From: Bacteroidota bacterium
Lineage (GTDB): Bacteria; Bacteroidota; Kryptoniia; Kryptoniales; JAKASW01
NCBI GenBank assembly: GCA_021785235.1
Contig: JAJYGB010000057.1
Span: forward strand, 1 to 5,737
DNA: 5,737 bases
Direction of reading: 5' to 3'
Below the pieces are notes generated by a model that was given only the letters and a program-made list of their open reading frames with translations, had not been told where the DNA came from and made no database searches. The position numbers were made by a program, and so were the translations under genes. This document shows positions 1 to 5,737 of the stretch, one piece after another. The first letter of the stretch is position 1. Each line of letters opens with the position of its first letter.

Positions 1-974
1 GGTATGTCTTCGCGTCTCTCGCGGAGGGGAGGGATCTGAATATTTATGACGTTAAGTCGGTAGTAAAGATCATCACGGAAACTCCCCTCGGCAACTGCTG
101 CGGAAAGATCTCTGTGGGTGGCCGCAATGACGCGTACGTCAACCGTTATTTCCTCGCTGCCGCCGACCCTGTAAAAACTCCGCTCCTGCAGTACGCGCAG
201 CAGATCCATCTGCAGCTTCGGTGAGATATCTCCGATCTCGTCCAGAAAAATCGTTCCGCCGTCTGCAAGCTCGAACTTTCCCTTCTTCTGCACCACCGCA
301 CCGGTGAACGCTCCCTTCTCATGACCGAACAGCTCGGATTCGAGGAGAGTCTCGGCAAGGGCCGCGCATGATACACCGACGAATGGCTTCGACGACCTGT
401 CCCCGGAATAATGAATGGCTCTCGCTATCAATTCCTTTCCCGTCCCGCTCTCGCCTTGGATCAGGACGGTACTTCTCAGGCTCGACACCTCCTGCACAAG
501 CTCGAAGATGTCGTGCATTTTCGGATTCTTGCTGATTATGTCATGAAAGCTGTACTGCCTGGTGAGCTTCTTCCTGAGGATCATATTCTCGCGCTGGAGA
601 TTTTTCACTTTAATTATGCGCTCGACCAGAATGGATATCTCCTTGGGATTGCACGGCTTTACGATATACTCCTGCGCCCCTTCCTTCATGGCAGAGATCG
701 CGGTGTCGACAGTCGCATAGGCAGTAATGATGATTATCGAGGCGTCCGGATGGATTTTCTTAATCTCCATCATCGTCTCGATGCCGTCCATACCACCGGG
801 CATCTTGAGGTCTATGAAATAGATGGCGTAATCCTTTTCCTTCGCCCTGTTGATAGCCGCATTTCCCGAAGCGGCGGAGTCGACGCCGTAACCGTCTTCA
901 CGAAGCCAGGCCACCAGCGATTCTCGCATGACTTCTTCGTCATCTACGACAAGTATTTCCCATTGCGTTTTCAT
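1..974 (-). CDS. NtrC-family sigma-54-dependent response regulator, 3' end cut off by the window
   Basis: This cytoplasmic transcription activator would be phosphorylated by the kinase encoded upstream and would drive sigma-54 promoters by ATP hydrolysis. The visible 324 residues hold a receiver domain (about 5-120) with acidic pocket D11/D12, phosphoacceptor D55 in [10 protein letters not shown]84 and K106. The AAA+ domain follows from about 143, with Walker A GESGTGKE (174-181), the sigma-54-contacting GAFTGA loop (221-226), Walker B IFLDEIG (242-248), sensor I near VIAATHRDL (282-290) and arginine-finger segment FRDDLYYRL (299-307). All key residues are intact. The C-terminal Fis-type DNA-binding domain lies beyond the left edge, so target DNA cannot be judged. 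The start is ATG at 974-972, with GGAG 8 bases upstream; it overlaps the protease stop as ATGA, which suggests translational coupling. The family call is very secure; the regulon is unknown. Confidence 0.96.
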
Positions 975-1552
975 CTTCGTATCTCCACGACTTTGTTCTT
1001 CCTGGTTTCTTTTCTCAGTCTCGTAAGCGTCTCTTCGAGGACTGCCCAGCAGCCGGCACAAAAGTCTCCAGATTTCACGTCGATCTGAAGTATTTCCGTC
1101 GAGAGCGACATAAGGCATGCCCTATCCCGGCAGTGCACAAGGCCGAACGTGTGCCCGAGTTCGTGCGCTGTTTCTTTTCTCGCCCGGCGGATTTTAAGTT
1201 CCTTGTTCGGCTGGAGCCCGTAGAATTCCTGCGAGAGCCTGGCAAGCGAGACTATCGCGGTCCTTCCCGAAAGCTGCGCCTGCCCGTAAACAAAAGTGAC
1301 CATCGGGATGAACAGGTCTGCCTCCGTTATCGCGAGGAACCTGACGGCGTCAGGAGGACAAACCCGCGCGAGATTCCGCAGGATCAGGGCGGAGCTGTAC
1401 TGCCCCCTCCTCCCGTCCAACGCGTAGTCGGGCTCGGGAAAGGAAGTGTACATCTCCACTTCGAAACCGAACATTTCTCCGATATGCCGCGCTATCATGT
1501 TCATTATCTCGTCGTTCACCCCTCCAACCGGGGACACATATATCTTCCCCAT
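971..1552 (-). CDS. amzA: Archaemetzincin-family zinc metalloprotease
   Basis: This 193-residue protein is a small metzincin-type peptidase of the archaemetzincin family, which is best known from archaea and vertebrates and patchy in bacteria. The signature is complete. [11 protein letters not shown] (130-140) gives the catalytic zinc ligands H130, H134 and H140 and general base E131. Cysteines C141, C146, C165 and C168 (HC-x4-C-x-M, then CAGC) form the family's second, structural zinc site, and M148 is the Met-turn. The N-terminal half carries the family-like segments around residues 70-105 ([10 protein letters not shown], then the stretch ending in IVSLARL). There is no signal peptide or membrane helix, so it is predicted to be cytosolic. 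Length is normal. ATG 1552-1550 overlaps the kinase TAA stop (TAATG) and has no strong Shine-Dalgarno sequence, so it is probably translated by reinitiation. Its substrate is unknown. The position between a sensor kinase and its regulator is unusual and suggests a signalling-linked role, which is inference. Confidence 0.95.
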
Positions 1553-3186
1553 TACGAGTTGACACCGTGCTGTCCCGGCGATACCGCAGACTGTTCCGCC
1601 TGGTCCTGTCTCTTCTTAATCGGAAGAGTCACCTTGAAAGTCGTTCCTTCACCGGCAACGCTGGCCACCTCGATGTCTCCGCCGTGCGCATCCACGATAC
1701 CGTAGACGACAGAAAGGCCGAGCCCCGTGCCTTTCACTTCTCCCTTCGTAGTGAAAAACGGGTCAAAGATCTTCGACAGAAATTCTTTCGGTATCCCGTC
1801 CCCCGTATCGGATATTTCCAGGATCATCGATTCGTTCGCCTGCCTCGTCGTTATCGATATTTTCCCCTGTCCCTTGTTCTGACACGCCTCCGCCCCGTTT
1901 AAGACGAGGTTTATTATTACCTGTTGCATCTGAGATCCGTCACATTCGACGGGAGGCAGCGAATCGGACAGATGAAGCTCGAGGACGAGATTTCCCAGCT
2001 CCAGCCGATGCCTGAGTATCATTAGTGTGCTCTTAATAACCGAATTCAAATCGACGGTTTTACTCTGGGGCTTCGATCTTCTCGAGAAAGCCAGAAGATC
2101 GGACACGATTCTTCCCACACGGGTAGTCTGGTCAATTATCTGACCCAGGTACTTTCTGAACTCCGCGACCCGATCCGCCGGTATGCCGTCCGCCTTCATT
2201 ATCCTGTCGAGGAGCATCGCGAGGTTAAGCACGCCGGAGATCGGGTTGTTTATTTCATGCGCGACGGTCGCGGACAACTGGCCGAGAGACGCGAGGCGAT
2301 CGCTCTGAAGCAATTTCTGATGAGCGACTTCGAGTTGTTTCGTCCGCTCCTGGACCTTCAGCTCCAGATCCTGAGTCGCCTGGTTCAGCTCCACCATCGC
2401 CTTATTCAGCCGCTCGCTCATCACGTTGAACTCGTGCGCGAGTTCGCCGAGGTCCGCACTCGAAGTGATCTCGACGACGTGGTCAAGTTCCATCCGGCTT
2501 ACGGCCCGCGTTCCAGCAATAAGCTGGTTTATCGGCCTATCGACGAAGCGGCGCGTGAAAAAGACAATAAAAAGCCCGATCAAGATAATCTGAATGCCGG
2601 TAACGGCGAGGACTGCGGCTCTCGCCGCATTGAGCTCCGTGTCCAGAGGTTTCAGATCGAATGCGACATCCAGTACACCGAGCACGCTTGTCGTCACCGG
2701 GTGAGCGTGGCACGGAGCCTGACTGCAGGAAGGCTCGTTATAGATCGGCGTGACCATTGCAAGCTGCCTGTCTCCGTCGGCCGCTCGAAAAATCCTCGAG
2801 CGCGAGGAGGCGTCGATGTTCACAAGCGGCAGCGAAGAGGAGTGGCACATGGCACATGCCTCGGCATTCTTGTTCACCTGCTTCTCGTCGACCGCCTTCG
2901 TAGAGAACATCACCCGCCCCTCTTTATTGAAGATCCTGATCCGGCTGATTCCCGGATTCGCCGCGATGGTCTGCATTACCTCGTATGCCGCGGTGCGGTC
3001 GTCGGCAAGCATTGCGTGCCAGGTAGCACTCGCGATTCCCCTGGAAAGCTGGTCCGCCCCGTTGATCATCGCGTCAAGGATTTGCCGCTCCTGGTTCTTC
3101 AGGCTGATGTAGCCCGAAATTCCGGACACGAGCATGACGATGATCGTTAGAGAGATGATTATCTGTTGAGAAAGCCGTTTCGGCAC
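1552..3186 (-). CDS. Membrane sensor histidine kinase with periplasmic c-type heme-binding motifs
   Basis: A 544-residue inner-membrane kinase. A first membrane helix (about 9-27) is followed by an external sensor domain (about 30-188) and a second helix (about 190-211). A HAMP linker (about 212-264), a coiled-coil stretch (about 262-295), a dimerisation domain with phosphorylated H310 in VAHEINNP, and a GHKL ATPase domain with N-box (Q421-N430), DTGDGIP (460-466) and GTGLGL (486-491) come after. The sensor domain has CAMCH (111-115), a canonical heme c site, and CSQAPCH (154-160), a CxxxxCH site of the kind accepted in some multiheme cytochromes. The likely signal is redox state, oxygen, NO or electron-chain status, but this is inferred. 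No PAS or receiver domain is present. The start is GTG 3186-3184: an in-frame TGA lies at 3195-3193, no other start fits between, the next Met is residue 18 inside the helix, and GAGG sits 4 bases upstream. First gene of the operon; its probable partner is the response regulator two genes down. Confidence 0.95.
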
Positions 3187-3210
3187 GACACCTCACCCGC
3201 TTTCGAACTT

Positions 3211-3256
3211 TGAGTATAATTCTATTCTTGAAAGAATTAATTCAAGGCAGGTGCTA
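3211..3256 (-). promoter_or_regulatory. Possible promoter region of the sensor operon
   Basis: Two weak promoter readings are possible on the minus strand. A sigma-70-like -10 hexamer TATACT (3218-3213; 5 of 6 matches) lies 26 bases before the GTG start, but no good -35 accompanies it; TTAATT with 16-base spacing matches only 3 of 6. A sigma-54-like pair TAGCAC-N5-TTGAA (3256-3241) resembles TGGCAC-N5-TTGCA but lacks one base of each conserved GG and GC pair. The sigma-54 reading would suit self-activation by the NtrC-type regulator encoded in the operon. Neither is convincing from sequence alone. Confidence 0.3.
3224..3246. repeat. Nested palindromes upstream of the kinase, possible operator
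   Basis: Two perfect dyads overlap. ATTCTT-GA-AAGAAT occupies 3224-3237, and CTTGAA-N8-TTCAAG occupies 3227-3246 with GAATTAATTC inside it. They lie 38-60 bases before the kinase start and overlap the candidate promoter elements, so they could be a binding site for a dimeric regulator. AT-rich sequence produces short palindromes by chance, which limits confidence. Confidence 0.4.
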
Positions 3257-3350
3257 CGGCATACCGCAAGAGATTTAAGCCCATTACACTGACGGAGATA
3301 AAATAGGGAGGGTAAATCAGAGATTCAATTCAGGCAATGACTCATTTAGG

Positions 3351-3452
3351 TTTCACGCAGAGATCGCCGAGAAATAAGATCGCAGAGAACGGAAAGGGAT
3401 TTTACACTTTTCTCCGCGTACTCTGCGACCACTTTGCGGACTTTGCGTGAAA
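3351..3452. repeat. Dispersed-type long inverted repeat (REP-like intergenic element)
   Basis: The left arm begins TTTCACGCAGAG and the right arm ends CTTTGCGTGAAA. Each arm is about 45-48 bases, built of degenerate units containing CGCAGAG or CGCAAAG, and pairs with the other arm with several mismatches and a small indel around a short AT-rich centre (TTTTACAC, about 3400-3407). Internal pairing blocks include TCGCAGAG (3379-3387 region) against CTCTGCGA (3421-3428). Similar CGCAGAG-rich inverted repeats recur between genes in many bacterial genomes; that is general knowledge. Copy number in this genome cannot be seen. It contains no transposase and probably folds into a long imperfect hairpin. 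Confidence 0.8.
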
Positions 3453-3502
3453 TATCTTCACTAATATTCAAGCCGATTCACTACCTTCAATTCAATGAAT
3501 AT

Positions 3503-3532
3503 AGCCGAGGTTTGATTGACCAAACCTCGGCT
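3503..3532 (-). terminator. Perfect 12-bp hairpin behind kdgK, probable terminator
   Basis: AGCCGAGGTTTG and CAAACCTCGGCT form a perfect 12-bp stem with a 6-base loop, beginning 10 bases after the kdgK stop. On the minus strand the stem is followed by ATATTCATTG rather than a clear T run, so it is a terminator or a 3'-end stabilising structure. The plus strand also lacks a T run and has no gene to end. Confidence 0.6.
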
Positions 3533-3542
3533 TGAGATACAA

Positions 3543-4625
3543 TTACCGTTGAATTCTTGCCGAGCCTCCCTTTGCGAATGCGCGGACCTGGTCGACAGTT
3601 GCCATGGTTGTGTCACCCGGGAAGGTGGTCAGCAGGGCTCCATGTGCCCAGCCGAGTTTCACCGCTTCTTCGGGAGTCTCACCTGTCAGCAATCCGTAGA
3701 AAAACCCGGAGGCAAATCCGTCTCCGCCGCCCACGCGGTCGAGGACGTTGAGGTCGACGGTGGGCGATGCGTAAGTCTTTCCGTTGACCCAGGCTACCGC
3801 TCCCCAGCCGTGGTGGTTCGTCGAGTGTACTTCGCGCAGCGTAGTCGCCACAACCTTCACCCGCGGATGCTTCGCCACAACCTTGTCGATCATGCCGAAG
3901 AAAGTGCTCGGATCGAGCTTCGACTTCGCGGAAACTTCCGGGCCGGGTATCCCGAGCCCCTTCTGCAGATCCTCTTCGTTGCCGACGAGCACGTCGACGT
4001 TCTCGACGATTCGCGCGACGACTTCCACCGCTTTCTTCTGCCCGCCCCAGATATTCCAGAGCTTCTCGCGAAAATTAAGATCGAAGCTGACTATCGCCCC
4101 GGCCTTCTTCGCGGCTTTCATTCCTTCGATGATGACTTCGCCGGTAGTCTCGGAAAGCGCCGCGAAAATCCCGCCGCTGTGGAACCAGCGGACTCCGCCC
4201 GCACAGATCGTTTTCCAGTCGAAGTCACCGGGTTTTAGCTGGGCCGCCGCCTCGTTTGCACGGTTGTAAAACACCACGGGAGGTCTTATGCCGTGTCCCA
4301 TGTCGCTGTAGACTGTCGCCATGTTAGGGCCGTTGACCCCGTTGTGTTTGAAGCGCTTGTAGAACGGTCTGACGCCCATAGCTCTTACCCGCTCGGCGAT
4401 CAAATCGCCGATCGGATAATCCACCATCGCCGAGGCGATCCCGGTGTTAAGCTGGAAACAGTCCGACAGGTTCGCGGCCACATTGAACTCACCGCCGCTC
4501 ACGTGGATCTTACACTCCGTCGCTTTCCTGAAGGGTACTATGCCAGGATCGAGCCTGTGCACCAGCGCGCCGAGAGATACAAAGTCGAGCGCACCCTTTT
4601 GCGGTACATTTAGATCATTACTCAT
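3543..4625 (-). CDS. kdgK: PfkB-family sugar kinase, probable 2-keto-3-deoxygluconate kinase
   Basis: A 360-residue cytosolic kinase of the ribokinase/PfkB fold. It most likely uses ATP to phosphorylate 2-keto-3-deoxygluconate to KDPG, the substrate of KDPG aldolase. Seen: the N-terminal substrate motif SGGEFNVAANLS (43-54), the substrate-side segment VVFYNRANEAA (117-127), FDLNFREKLW (181-190), which fits the D-N-R-xxLW element of KDG kinases, NEED (216-219), and the C-terminal anion-hole and catalytic-base motif DRVGGGDGFASG (296-307) with D302 as base. GGGD in place of the commoner GAGD occurs in this branch. Length is slightly above the 310-350 typical of the family. The start ATG 4625-4623 has AGGA 7 bases upstream. 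Upstream gnd, also a sugar-acid phosphate enzyme, supports a carbohydrate role. Family membership is secure; the exact sugar is less so, and another keto-sugar acid or fructose-type substrate is possible. Confidence 0.9.
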   Translation of the reverse strand: MSNDLNVPQKGALDFVSLGALVHRLDPGIVPFRKATECKIHVSGGEFNVAANLSDCFQLNTGIASAMVDYPIGDLIAERVRAMGVRPFYKRFKHNGVNGPNMATVYSDMGHGIRPPVVFYNRANEAAAQLKPGDFDWKTICAGGVRWFHSGGIFAALSETTGEVIIEGMKAAKKAGAIVSFDLNFREKLWNIWGGQKKAVEVVARIVENVDVLVGNEEDLQKGLGIPGPEVSAKSKLDPSTFFGMIDKVVAKHPRVKVVATTLREVHSTNHHGWGAVAWVNGKTYASPTVDLNVLDRVGGGDGFASGFFYGLLTGETPEEAVKLGWAHGALLTTFPGDTTMATVDQVRAFAKGGSARIQR

Positions 4626-4668
4626 ATAGAATTCCTATTTGGTTATCTTGGTATTCTATTCCTGTGAG

Positions 4669-4703
4669 AAGTTCCAAGCTCCAACTCACAAGCTCCAAAC
4701 AAA
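4669..4703. repeat. Degenerate 7-base tandem repeat in the gnd-kdgK spacer
   Basis: Five successive heptamers can be read in register: AAGTTCC, AAGCTCC, AACTCAC, AAGCTCC and AAACAAA. The first, second and fourth are nearly identical, and the ten-base CAAGCTCCAA occurs exactly twice (4675-4684 and 4689-4698), 14 bases apart. There is no gene in it. It sits 44-78 bases upstream of the kdgK start and overlaps a TGTGAG/CTCACA inverted pair (4663-4668 and 4685-4690), so it may influence kdgK expression or simply be an expanding intergenic repeat. Confidence 0.6.
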
Positions 4704-4722
4704 CACAAAACATCAAGGAGAT

Positions 4723-4745
4723 AAAAAGGGCATGTAAAGTTGCCC
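4723..4745 (-). terminator. Short intrinsic terminator candidate behind gnd
   Basis: On the minus strand GGGCA (4745-4741) pairs with TGCCC (4732-4728) around an 8-base loop and is followed directly by TTTTTA (4727-4722). It begins 4 bases after the gnd stop. The stem is only 5 bp, so termination may be partial. If active, kdgK needs its own promoter within 4626-4722, where no strong one is visible (TAGAAT at 4657-4652 is the best -10 match, without a matching -35). Confidence 0.5.
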
Positions 4746-4749
4746 AACC

Positions 4750-5737
4750 TCATGCCAGATAAGTCGACGACGCAGTATCGCCGCCGTGGCCGGTCCAGTT
4801 CGTGTGGAAAAACTCTCCGCGCGGTTTGTCGACACGCTCGTACTGGTGCGCGCCAAAGTAATCGCGCTGCGCCTGGAGAAGATTCGCCGGGAGACGCGAA
4901 TTGCGGTAACCGTCGAAGTAATTCAGCGCCGTCGAAAAAGCCGGCACCCAAATCCCGTTCATGACGGCAGTGGAAATGACTCGCCGCCAGCTTTCCTGCG
5001 ACTGCTCAATCTTCCCCTTGAAAAACGGGTCAAGCAGAAGGTTGCTCAGGTTTGGGTTCTTGTCGAACGCCTCTTTTATCTTTCCGAGGAATCTGCTCCG
5101 GATGATGCAGCCGCCTCGCCAGAGGAGCGCGATCGGACCGTAGTTGAGATTCCACTTATATTCCGCCGCTGCGGCGCGCAAGAGCGTGAAACCCTGCGCG
5201 TACGACACAATCTTCGACGCGTACAACGCCTTCTCAAGATCGTTGAGGAACGCCTGCCTGTCGCCGGTGAAAGACGGCTTCGGCCCGTGCAGAACCTTCG
5301 ACGCCTCGACTCTCTCTTCTTTGATCGCCGAGAGACATCGCCCGTAGACAGCTTCGCTTATAAGCGTCAGCGGGATCCCGAGATCGAGAGAGGTCTCGCT
5401 CGTCCACTTTCCCGTTCCCTTCTGGCCCGCGGTGTCCAGTATCTTATCCACGAGCGGCTTGCCGTCGGTGTCTTTGTATGCCAGAATATCCCTTGTAATC
5501 TCTATCAGGTAGCTGTCGAGATCTCCGGTGTTCCACTTCTTGAACACTTCATGCATCTCTCCGGCGCTCATGCCGAGAAGTTCTTTCATGATCTGGTAAG
5601 CTTCAGTGATGAGCTGCATGTCGCCGTATTCTATGCCGTTATGGACCATCTTGACGAAATGCCCGGCTCCATCGCTGCCGACCCAGTCGCAGCACGGTGT
5701 GCCATCTTCAACCTTCGCGGCAATAGATTGGAATATC
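4750..5737 (-). CDS. gnd: 6-phosphogluconate dehydrogenase, decarboxylating; 5' end outside the window
   Basis: This cytosolic enzyme oxidises and decarboxylates 6-phosphogluconate to ribulose-5-phosphate with NADP+ or NAD+ in the oxidative pentose phosphate pathway. The 328 visible residues are the C-terminal part of the long (about 470-residue) form; the N-terminal Rossmann cofactor domain, about 140-150 residues, lies beyond the right edge, so cofactor preference cannot be read. Seen: GSDGAGHFVKMVHNGIEYGD spanning visible residues 20-39, with catalytic K29 and substrate-binding H32 and N33; the family signature ILDTAGQKGTGKW (99-111; bases 5442-5404), an exact match to the known pattern; and the all-helical domain ending in the tail FHTNWTGHGGDTASSTYLA, whose GGDTxSSTY end contacts the partner subunit's substrate. 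The reading frame is uninterrupted and ends in TGA at 4752-4750. Downstream are a short terminator-like hairpin and then kdgK. Confidence 0.98.
   Translation of the reverse strand, partial: IFQSIAAKVEDGTPCCDWVGSDGAGHFVKMVHNGIEYGDMQLITEAYQIMKELLGMSAGEMHEVFKKWNTGDLDSYLIEITRDILAYKDTDGKPLVDKILDTAGQKGTGKWTSETSLDLGIPLTLISEAVYGRCLSAIKEERVEASKVLHGPKPSFTGDRQAFLNDLEKALYASKIVSYAQGFTLLRAAAAEYKWNLNYGPIALLWRGGCIIRSRFLGKIKEAFDKNPNLSNLLLDPFFKGKIEQSQESWRRVISTAVMNGIWVPAFSTALNYFDGYRNSRLPANLLQAQRDYFGAHQYERVDKPRGEFFHTNWTGHGGDTASSTYLA

Follow-up and report, generated by a model that had tools for sequence, protein, structure and literature searches.

Within a 5,737-nucleotide stretch from a Bacteroidota bacterium (Kryptoniales; assembly GCA_021785235.1, contig JAJYGB010000057.1, positions 1 to 5,737; hereafter the window), we find a three-gene module on the minus strand in which the gene for an archaemetzincin (family M54) lies between those for a histidine kinase with heme-c motifs and an NtrC-type, sigma-54-activating response regulator. 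An earlier note on this DNA, made from its letters alone, had taken a 1-base (TAATG, 1554-1550) and a 4-base (ATGA, 974-971) overlap between these genes to mean that the protease sits inside a two-component system rather than beside it; both overlaps are present in the sequence, and the arrangement recurs in many phyla, in two gene orders and with coupled starts. The gene identities, which the note had read from motifs, agree with the Pfam assignments: HAMP, HisKA and HATPase_c in the kinase, Peptidase_M54 in the protease and Response_reg with Sigma54_activat in the regulator. The module has the following features:

1552..3186, minus strand: sensor histidine kinase, 544 amino acids, GTG start (list of open reading frames, Pfam)
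2533..3186, minus strand: sensor region of the kinase, residues 1-218 (alignment and structure model)
2842..2856, minus strand: CAMCH, first heme-c motif (CxxCH), residues 111-115 (sequence)
2701..2727, minus strand: CSQAPCHAH, second motif (CX4CHxH), residues 154-162 (sequence, alignment)
1550..1554, minus strand: TAATG, 1-base overlap of kinase stop and archaemetzincin start (sequence)
971..1552, minus strand: archaemetzincin (M54), 193 amino acids (Pfam, NCBIfam)
1130..1165, minus strand: catalytic zinc site, HExxHxxGxxHC (alignment)
1049..1132, minus strand: four-cysteine zinc-site region, C141, C146, C165 and C168 (alignment)
971..974, minus strand: ATGA, 4-base overlap of regulator start and archaemetzincin stop (sequence)
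3..974, minus strand: NtrC-type response regulator with REC and sigma-54 AAA+ domains, ATG at 974, truncated by the window edge with 324 amino acids visible

Heme-motif sensor, archaemetzincin and regulator

The kinase joins its HAMP, HisKA (phospho-acceptor domain, with His310) and HATPase_c domains to an N-terminal sensor; judging from the long helices of a structure model and from hydrophobic stretches, it is predicted to consist of an N-terminal membrane helix, an extracytoplasmic Cache-type sensor and a second membrane helix ahead of HAMP. Residues 1-218 were used both as input for the structure model and as the first row of a sensor alignment of 59 kinases, i.e., that of the window and 58 kinases of at least 400 amino acids that carry the same sensor in the 80 archaemetzincin loci described below. 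Cys154, Cys159 and His160 of CX4CHxH are present in 59/59 of these and His162 in 57/59, making this motif better conserved than CxxCH (55/59). CX4CH, like CxxCH, is a heme motif, and the sensor is likely to bind one or two covalent c-type hemes. The earlier note had proposed a redox-type, heme-motif sensor, which is backed by the motifs and by the Cache-type fold of the model; it had recognized CxxCH correctly and overlooked the second motif.

A CXXCH within a predicted extracytoplasmic Cache/PAS-like domain is shared with the heme-containing Cache sensors (sCache_heme, DUF3365/Tll0287; e.g., Geobacter GSU0582 and GSU0935). Unlike the DUF3365/Tll0287 sensors, it shows no PF11845 among its six Pfam matches (E up to 0.001) and displays the additional, more conserved CX4CHxH. 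The sensor region is touched only by sub-cut-off Pfam matches (CHASE8 and Mcp40H-20), and Foldseek lists GSU0935 (3b42) for the sensor model at E 1.3e-5 but with a root-mean-square deviation of 13.7. For the kinase core and the regulator, the best-scoring models are those of AtoS/AtoC, ZraS/ZraR and other NtrC-type pairs, whose cut-offs they do not reach; the two resemble such pairs, to which the module adds a protease gene and the heme-motif sensor. Separately, five short frames of 289-310 amino acids (G319:C22, G323:C42, G392:C608, G422:C15 and G451:C147) match the heme-motif sensor and are too short for a kinase; each has a full-length sensor kinase a few kb away on the opposite strand.

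The archaemetzincin is matched by Peptidase_M54 (PF07998; 83.4 bits, cut-off 24.4) and NCBIfam NF033823 (160.1 bits, cut-off 145), and by sequence to the structures 2x7m (E 1.8e-30) and 3zvs (E 5.2e-19). It shares HExxHxxGxxHC and the four-cysteine site with the archaeal members of MEROPS M54 (AfAmzA of Archaeoglobus, AmzA of Methanopyrus), which the accessible text of the literature presents as single enzymes, whereas the module gene has a fixed place among the parts of a two-component system that, in relatives, neighbors a redox operon. His130, Glu131, His134, His140, Cys141, Cys146, Cys165 and Cys168 are invariant in 26/26 sequences (window plus 25 relatives), and the M-x16-C spacing of the window protein differs from the x17 of the consensus given in the accessible part of PMC3427221. 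Among the 88 archaemetzincins of the module group defined below, 83 retain the full four-cysteine pattern. No signal peptide is seen on reading the sequence, and the protein is probably cytosolic. The regulator has the REC and sigma-54 AAA+ domains and a GAFTGA loop in its translation, features of the NtrC type; the window cuts it before its C-terminus, where the full-length regulators of loci L002 and L003 bear a Fis-type helix-turn-helix domain (HTH_8; 58.4 and 57.6 bits).

Conservation and distribution of the module

One scan of an archaemetzincin alignment against 84,980 species genomes gave at least 592 stretches, of which 380 were confirmed and the best 80 loci kept, so that these 80 loci lean towards window-like proteins. 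They hold 81 archaemetzincin genes, 72 of which adjoin a sigma-54 regulator on the same strand and 69 of those also a histidine kinase; genomes in which an archaemetzincin is flanked by a kinase and an NtrC-type regulator, for which the earlier note had suggested a search, are thus plentiful in this best 80 of 380. The nine genes with no adjacent regulator are those of L044, L046, L058, L060, L062, L073, L075, L080 and L077, the last facing a gap of Ns; a 534-amino-acid regulator-archaemetzincin fusion read there was rejected, since the frame crosses the N runs 5796-5865 and 5988-5989, an assembly gap. Going by record titles, module-bearing loci come from Bacteroidetes, Ignavibacteria, KSB1, Acidobacteria, Deltaproteobacteria, Eisenbacteria, Krumholzibacteriia, Gemmatimonadota, Zixibacteria, Planctomycetota and others. 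The module exists in two gene orders, and its scored junctions in relatives overlap or are spaced by no more than 10 bases in 44/50 kinase-protease, 40/45 protease-regulator and 19/22 regulator-protease cases (59/67 for protease and regulator in both orders). L023:817-7926 (also L400) is a six-gene tandem, kinase-regulator-archaemetzincin-kinase-archaemetzincin-regulator, with both orders side by side.

A quick tree of 122 archaemetzincins gathers the module members into a single group of 88, with a Shimodaira-Hasegawa-like approximate likelihood ratio support of 92 (below the 95 mark). The regulator is adjacent in 80 of these; the other eight lie at contig ends (L062 and L307), at the Ns of L077 or with a GcvH-like gene nearby (L044, L058, L060, L348 and L349). 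Neither a sigma-54 regulator nor a GcvH-like gene occurs in the loci of the 34 rows outside the group (0/34). The 40 loci added for this tree (L297-L316, L330-L349) were chosen mostly for an M54 gene with no adjacent heme sensor, and since the rows were not randomly drawn and the 80 loci are window-biased, the proportions in the tree are not population frequencies. In some protease-regulator pairs (L304, L306, L339 and L345), the kinase is of a kind that lacks this sensor. Trees of 65 rows place two changes of gene order on the kinase, one on the regulator and two on the protease, and the distance correlations of the same rows (protease-kinase 0.64, protease-regulator 0.64, kinase-regulator 0.91; reached in 0/2000 permutations) show co-inheritance, which may reflect co-evolution or simply vertical descent. 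The phylogeny comparison put forward in the earlier note yields this much. Stand-alone archaemetzincins of another group directly adjoin a gene of 511-521 amino acids in L330, L332 and L336, a possible second conserved context.

The linkage was further gauged in three genome draws, 148 genomes around L003 (Bacteroidota), 149 around L022 (Acidobacteriota) and 148 around L056 (Deltaproteobacteria), with phylum labels from record titles, linkage defined by coordinates (within 6 kb) and the regulator read directly only in fetched loci. The L003 draw gave 26 M54 matches along with 31 strongly matching sensors (E under 1e-50); a sensor lies within 6 kb of 15/26 of the former, and 15/31 of the latter are near an M54 gene. 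All 16 other sensors, in 15 regions, were read, giving two sigma-54 regulators with no protease, 13 other regulators and one contig end. In the L022 draw, 29/64 M54 matches are near one of 44 sensors, and the 12 of 15 unlinked sensors that were read comprise two sigma-54 pairs lacking the protease, two contig ends (L180 and L324) and eight other regulators. The L056 draw has 15/73 M54 matches within 6 kb of a sensor; 20 regions around unlinked sensors, taken from a longer list, include two in which the kinase adjoins a sigma-54 regulator and one, L369, with a divergent one. The earlier note had held that a unique arrangement, or absence of the protease from most orthologous pairs, would indicate a chance insertion; neither is the case, the arrangement recurring widely and sigma-54-coupled pairs with this sensor usually having the protease (in the L003 draw, 15 sensors near an M54 gene and two sigma-54 pairs without one).

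A Qrc/Hmc-like operon, GcvH-like proteins and sigma-54-like sites

Across relatives, the module repeatedly adjoins genes of a Qrc/Hmc-like respiratory operon. In a tally of 57 loci, the first downstream gene is GCV_H in 19/49 and the second NrfD in 12/44, plus five GCV_H, and the first upstream gene is GCV_H in 3/45 and NrfD in 3/45; the tally leaves out L011, L012, L016, L019, L029, L039 and L070 (protease missed by the gene map), L013, L014, L026 and L036 (kinase missed by the map) and 12 loci not counted as linked. Fifteen loci were read in longer stretches, in which the operon runs GcvH-like, pentaheme QrcA, QrcB, QrcC, QrcD, GcvH-like. By the gene map it is whole in 12/15, nine times convergent with the module, twice on the same strand after it (L392 and L398) and once in a stretch with no module (L397); the operon is cut in L393, L399 has a lone GcvH-like gene and L400 a different order. 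Of the relatives in which the operon is complete, L396 (an extension of L002) is the nearest; its QrcA passes the curated cut-off (192.4/180), with QrcD (557.9/570), QrcC (367.7/400) and QrcB (255.1/440) below theirs; QrcD exceeds its cut-off in 8/16 genomes searched, and the genes at the QrcB position in L386, L392 and L396 are of the molybdopterin oxidoreductase family (3/3 tested). The operon resembles QrcABCD menaquinone reductase and HmcBC of sulfate reducers, and differs in the flanking GcvH-like genes, in the sub-cut-off QrcB, QrcC and QrcD of L396 and in hosts that include Bacteroidota and Acidobacteriota (by title). L058 has HmcB-like, HmcC-like and tetraheme cytochrome neighbors, and in L058, L060 and L349 the protease is the first gene of a cluster with GcvH-like, iron-sulfur (FeS), NrfD and tetraheme cytochrome genes. 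On context, the earlier note had pointed in the right direction and was silent on this operon and on the GcvH-like protein, both of which lie outside the window.

In a structure model of the GcvH-like protein of L001 (mean predicted local distance difference test score 74.4), the C-terminal half matches H-proteins (apo-H protein 3a7l, E 1.9e-8, 125 columns), and the gcvH family model gives the protein 28.3 bits, below its cut-off of 115.85. H protein carries its lipoyl group on a lysine. Thirteen aligned GcvH-like proteins have four invariant cysteines and no lysine in invariant or near-invariant columns, and by this test the GcvH-like protein is not a lipoyl carrier. The four-cysteine (Cys4) segment pattern was found in reading frames of 32/86 module loci (many with short flanks), 0/34 loci from outside the group and 1/47 protease-less kinase loci (L165); it was likewise read in L172, which is not among the counted sets. 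In the L003 draw, the GcvH-like gene is present in 21/22 sensor genomes, 11/11 module genomes and 0/126 genomes with no sensor, and in the L022 draw in 38/42, 26/27 and 3/107, respectively, all three of the last having M54; the E-value lines separating GcvH-like from ordinary GcvH were set after the lists had been inspected. In the L056 draw, an M54 gene is present in 38 of the 40 genomes that carry a GcvH-like gene (E up to 5.6e-26); 55/84 GcvH-like copies lie within 6 kb of M54, and of the 73 M54 genes 38 have a GcvH-like gene within that distance and only 15 a sensor. The protease thus pairs more widely with the GcvH-like protein than with the heme-motif kinase.

A sister signaling system is apparent in L172:9633-16884 and L177:6503-13855, with FeS, NrfD, a 13-heme cytochrome, a diheme-motif sensor kinase and two REC-GcvH response regulators and no archaemetzincin; similar gene lengths are seen in L166-L171, L173, L174, L178 and L179.

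The promoters recognized by sigma-54 have a conserved consensus with GG and GC elements. In 13 of the 15 extended loci (L393, with the cut operon, and L400, with the other order, were excluded), we scored the 450 bases ahead of the first GcvH-like gene for matches to this consensus, requiring GG and GC and agreement at a minimum of 10 out of 12 positions. Such sites are present in 8/13 loci and before 0/87 other genes of the same loci; mononucleotide shuffles average 0.17 and never exceed 2. Because the 87 control genes include operon-internal ones, a wider control was made in fetched loci above 6 kb, with sites before 7/701 untagged genes and 4/247 of those with at least 100 intergenic bases upstream. 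Leaving aside L399, with its lone GcvH-like gene, and L397, whose stretch has no module, the count is 7/11, L392 and L398 being close kin. Kinases have an upstream site in 8/56 cases. The earlier note had advised looking for conserved sigma-54 sites elsewhere in the genome; in relatives, sigma-54-like sites are found before the GcvH-like/qrc operon. Small reading frames of 82-106 amino acids occur between the site and the first GcvH-like gene at L387:6185-6433, L388:14162-14455 and L391:4634-4954.

Read as transcribed, the minus strand of the window begins with part of a 6-phosphogluconate dehydrogenase gene, followed by the gene of a PfkB-type sugar kinase, 356 intergenic bases and then the kinase, archaemetzincin and regulator; no RNA families or tRNAs were found in the window. 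The genes upstream of the module are:

3543-4625, minus strand: PfkB-type sugar kinase
4750-5736, minus strand: 6-phosphogluconate dehydrogenase fragment

L003 has a PfkB gene at the equivalent upstream position, preceded by a gene of 520 amino acids. Between the kinase and PfkB, at about 3348-3455, are imperfect inverted repeats (TTTCACGCAGAG... / ...CTTTGCGTGAAA) that resemble a dispersed intergenic repeat, and right after the PfkB stop, at about 3508-3533, stands a terminator-like palindrome (CCGAGGTTTGATTGACCAAACCTCGG).

Proposed circuit and possible part of the protease

We consider it likely that the module is a conserved redox-responsive sigma-54 circuit for a Qrc/Hmc-like quinone oxidoreductase, an estimate that covers the circuit and its target and excludes the role of the protease. 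The Cache-type domain, with one or two c-type hemes, would sense the redox state or a heme ligand and thereby set kinase activity; by analogy with its family, the kinase would autophosphorylate and then phosphorylate the NtrC-type regulator, which in turn would activate sigma-54 promoters. The likely target in relatives is the adjoining operon, in which genes for GcvH-fold proteins flank those of a membrane menaquinone oxidoreductase; position, co-occurrence and the promoter-like sites point to it. The archaemetzincin would be produced by translational coupling with the kinase and regulator and act in the cytosol.

Several observations weigh against this reading. Sigma-54 pairs with no protease exist (L165 and L177, L317 and L326, L356 and L365 in the three draws), and many M54 genes are partnerless, 11/26 in the L003 draw and 35/64 in the L022 draw having no sensor within 6 kb and 33/73 in the L056 draw having neither a sensor nor a GcvH-like gene. 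Kinases in which this sensor is coupled to other regulators lack the protease in all regions read, so that within a broader family of heme-motif sensor kinases the protease accompanies the sigma-54 branch and not the sensor itself. The distance correlations fit shared vertical descent as well as co-evolution, and most of the 80 loci are, by their titles, from metagenome bins. The best promoter-like site of L396 has just 8 of 12 bases, and the window has no sigma-54-like site scoring at least 10. In L003, where a PfkB gene lies upstream of the module as it does in the window, the 19.5 kb read contains a single GcvH-like gene next to the module and no qrc genes. As the window ends inside the regulator, with any operon outside it, the link to a Qrc/GcvH operon in the window organism would follow from its relatives.

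As for the protease, our guess, held tentatively and at a little under even chances, is that it is a peptidase acting on a protein of this circuit. Peptidase activity is favored by the catalytic Glu kept in 88/88 module-group members and by AMZ-tk of Thermococcus, which the available text of its report describes as proteolytically active (PMC4681839); it is countered by two purified archaeal archaemetzincins that, in the accessible part of their report, were inactive on many substrates (PMC3427221). The first candidate for a substrate or partner is the Cys4 GcvH-like protein, because its pairing with the protease persists where the heme-motif kinase is absent, although we regard its being the substrate as rather doubtful. 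The fullest form of the proposal, a new signaling class in which a heme-sensing sigma-54 system has an active archaemetzincin cut a Cys4 GcvH-fold protein under redox control and thus couples proteolysis to transcription of the quinone oxidoreductase, seems to us unlikely as a whole.

The same genes allow other roles. The archaemetzincin fold can serve as a regulator subunit, as suggested by the two inactive archaeal enzymes and by CarG of Myxococcus xanthus, described in the text available as having the archaemetzincin-like motif with Glu replaced by Gln and no protease activity, and as translationally coupled to carD and in a regulatory complex with CarD (PMC8156234). By analogy, the module protein would cut nothing and, as CarG binds CarD, bind the response regulator and tune promoter activity; its gene stands beside that of the regulator in both orders, with 59/67 tight junctions, much as carG is coupled to a transcription regulator. 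CarG, however, has lost the Glu and partners CarD in the control of an extracytoplasmic function (ECF) sigma factor, whereas the module keeps the Glu in every member and partners a sigma-54 NtrC-type regulator and a kinase; the CarG-type model NF033824 scores the window protein, which has Glu131, at 92.7 bits against a cut-off of 250. The active Thermococcus enzyme and the loci in which the protease and regulator genes are not adjacent (L058, L060, L348 and L349) also argue against such an adaptor, which we judge improbable on the whole. About as hard to favor is a maturation or quality-control protease that trims or clears a cytosolic subunit or the GcvH-like protein of the respiratory complex and is merely co-expressed with the regulators: the linkage to GcvH-like and NrfD/FeS genes, and the clusters that the protease heads in L058, L060 and L349, would suit it, whereas the main class has the gene between kinase and regulator with coupled starts, outside the qrc operon, and the clusters of the Bacteroidota draw with FeS, NrfD and a 13-heme cytochrome do without it; this role, too, we think unlikely. 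That the protease gene entered the kinase-regulator operon by chance, with no functional link, could draw on the minority of sigma-54 pairs with this sensor, among those read, that lack it; this is contradicted by a distribution in which 72/81 genes have the regulator and 69 the kinase, across many phyla and two gene orders, with co-inheritance and coupled starts, and is to be considered very improbable indeed.

In the open-licence papers searched, we found no description of the module, no paper joining an archaemetzincin with a histidine kinase, and none on CX4CH with a heme histidine kinase or on GcvH-like proteins with Qrc or lipoyl; for QrcD with a response regulator or sigma-54, and for GcvH or NrfD with a kinase or regulator, there was nothing relevant among the matches listed. 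The accessible text of that literature assigns a role to no bacterial archaemetzincin that we found except the non-proteolytic CarG, and one paper mentions, in the part available, a novel protein family beside qrcABCD for one proposed phylum (PMC9727166).

Archaemetzincins occur in archaea, bacteria and animals, and the conserved gene set described here shows where a bacterial function may be sought; it makes what these proteins cut, and when, directly testable in cultures. The module also offers a candidate for a dedicated regulator of Qrc/Hmc-like complexes and, together with the REC-GcvH regulators of related systems, suggests a use of the GcvH fold in signaling. Were cleavage of the Cys4 GcvH-fold protein to hold true, proteolytic bacterial archaemetzincins would gain a function, and the GcvH fold a non-metabolic role.

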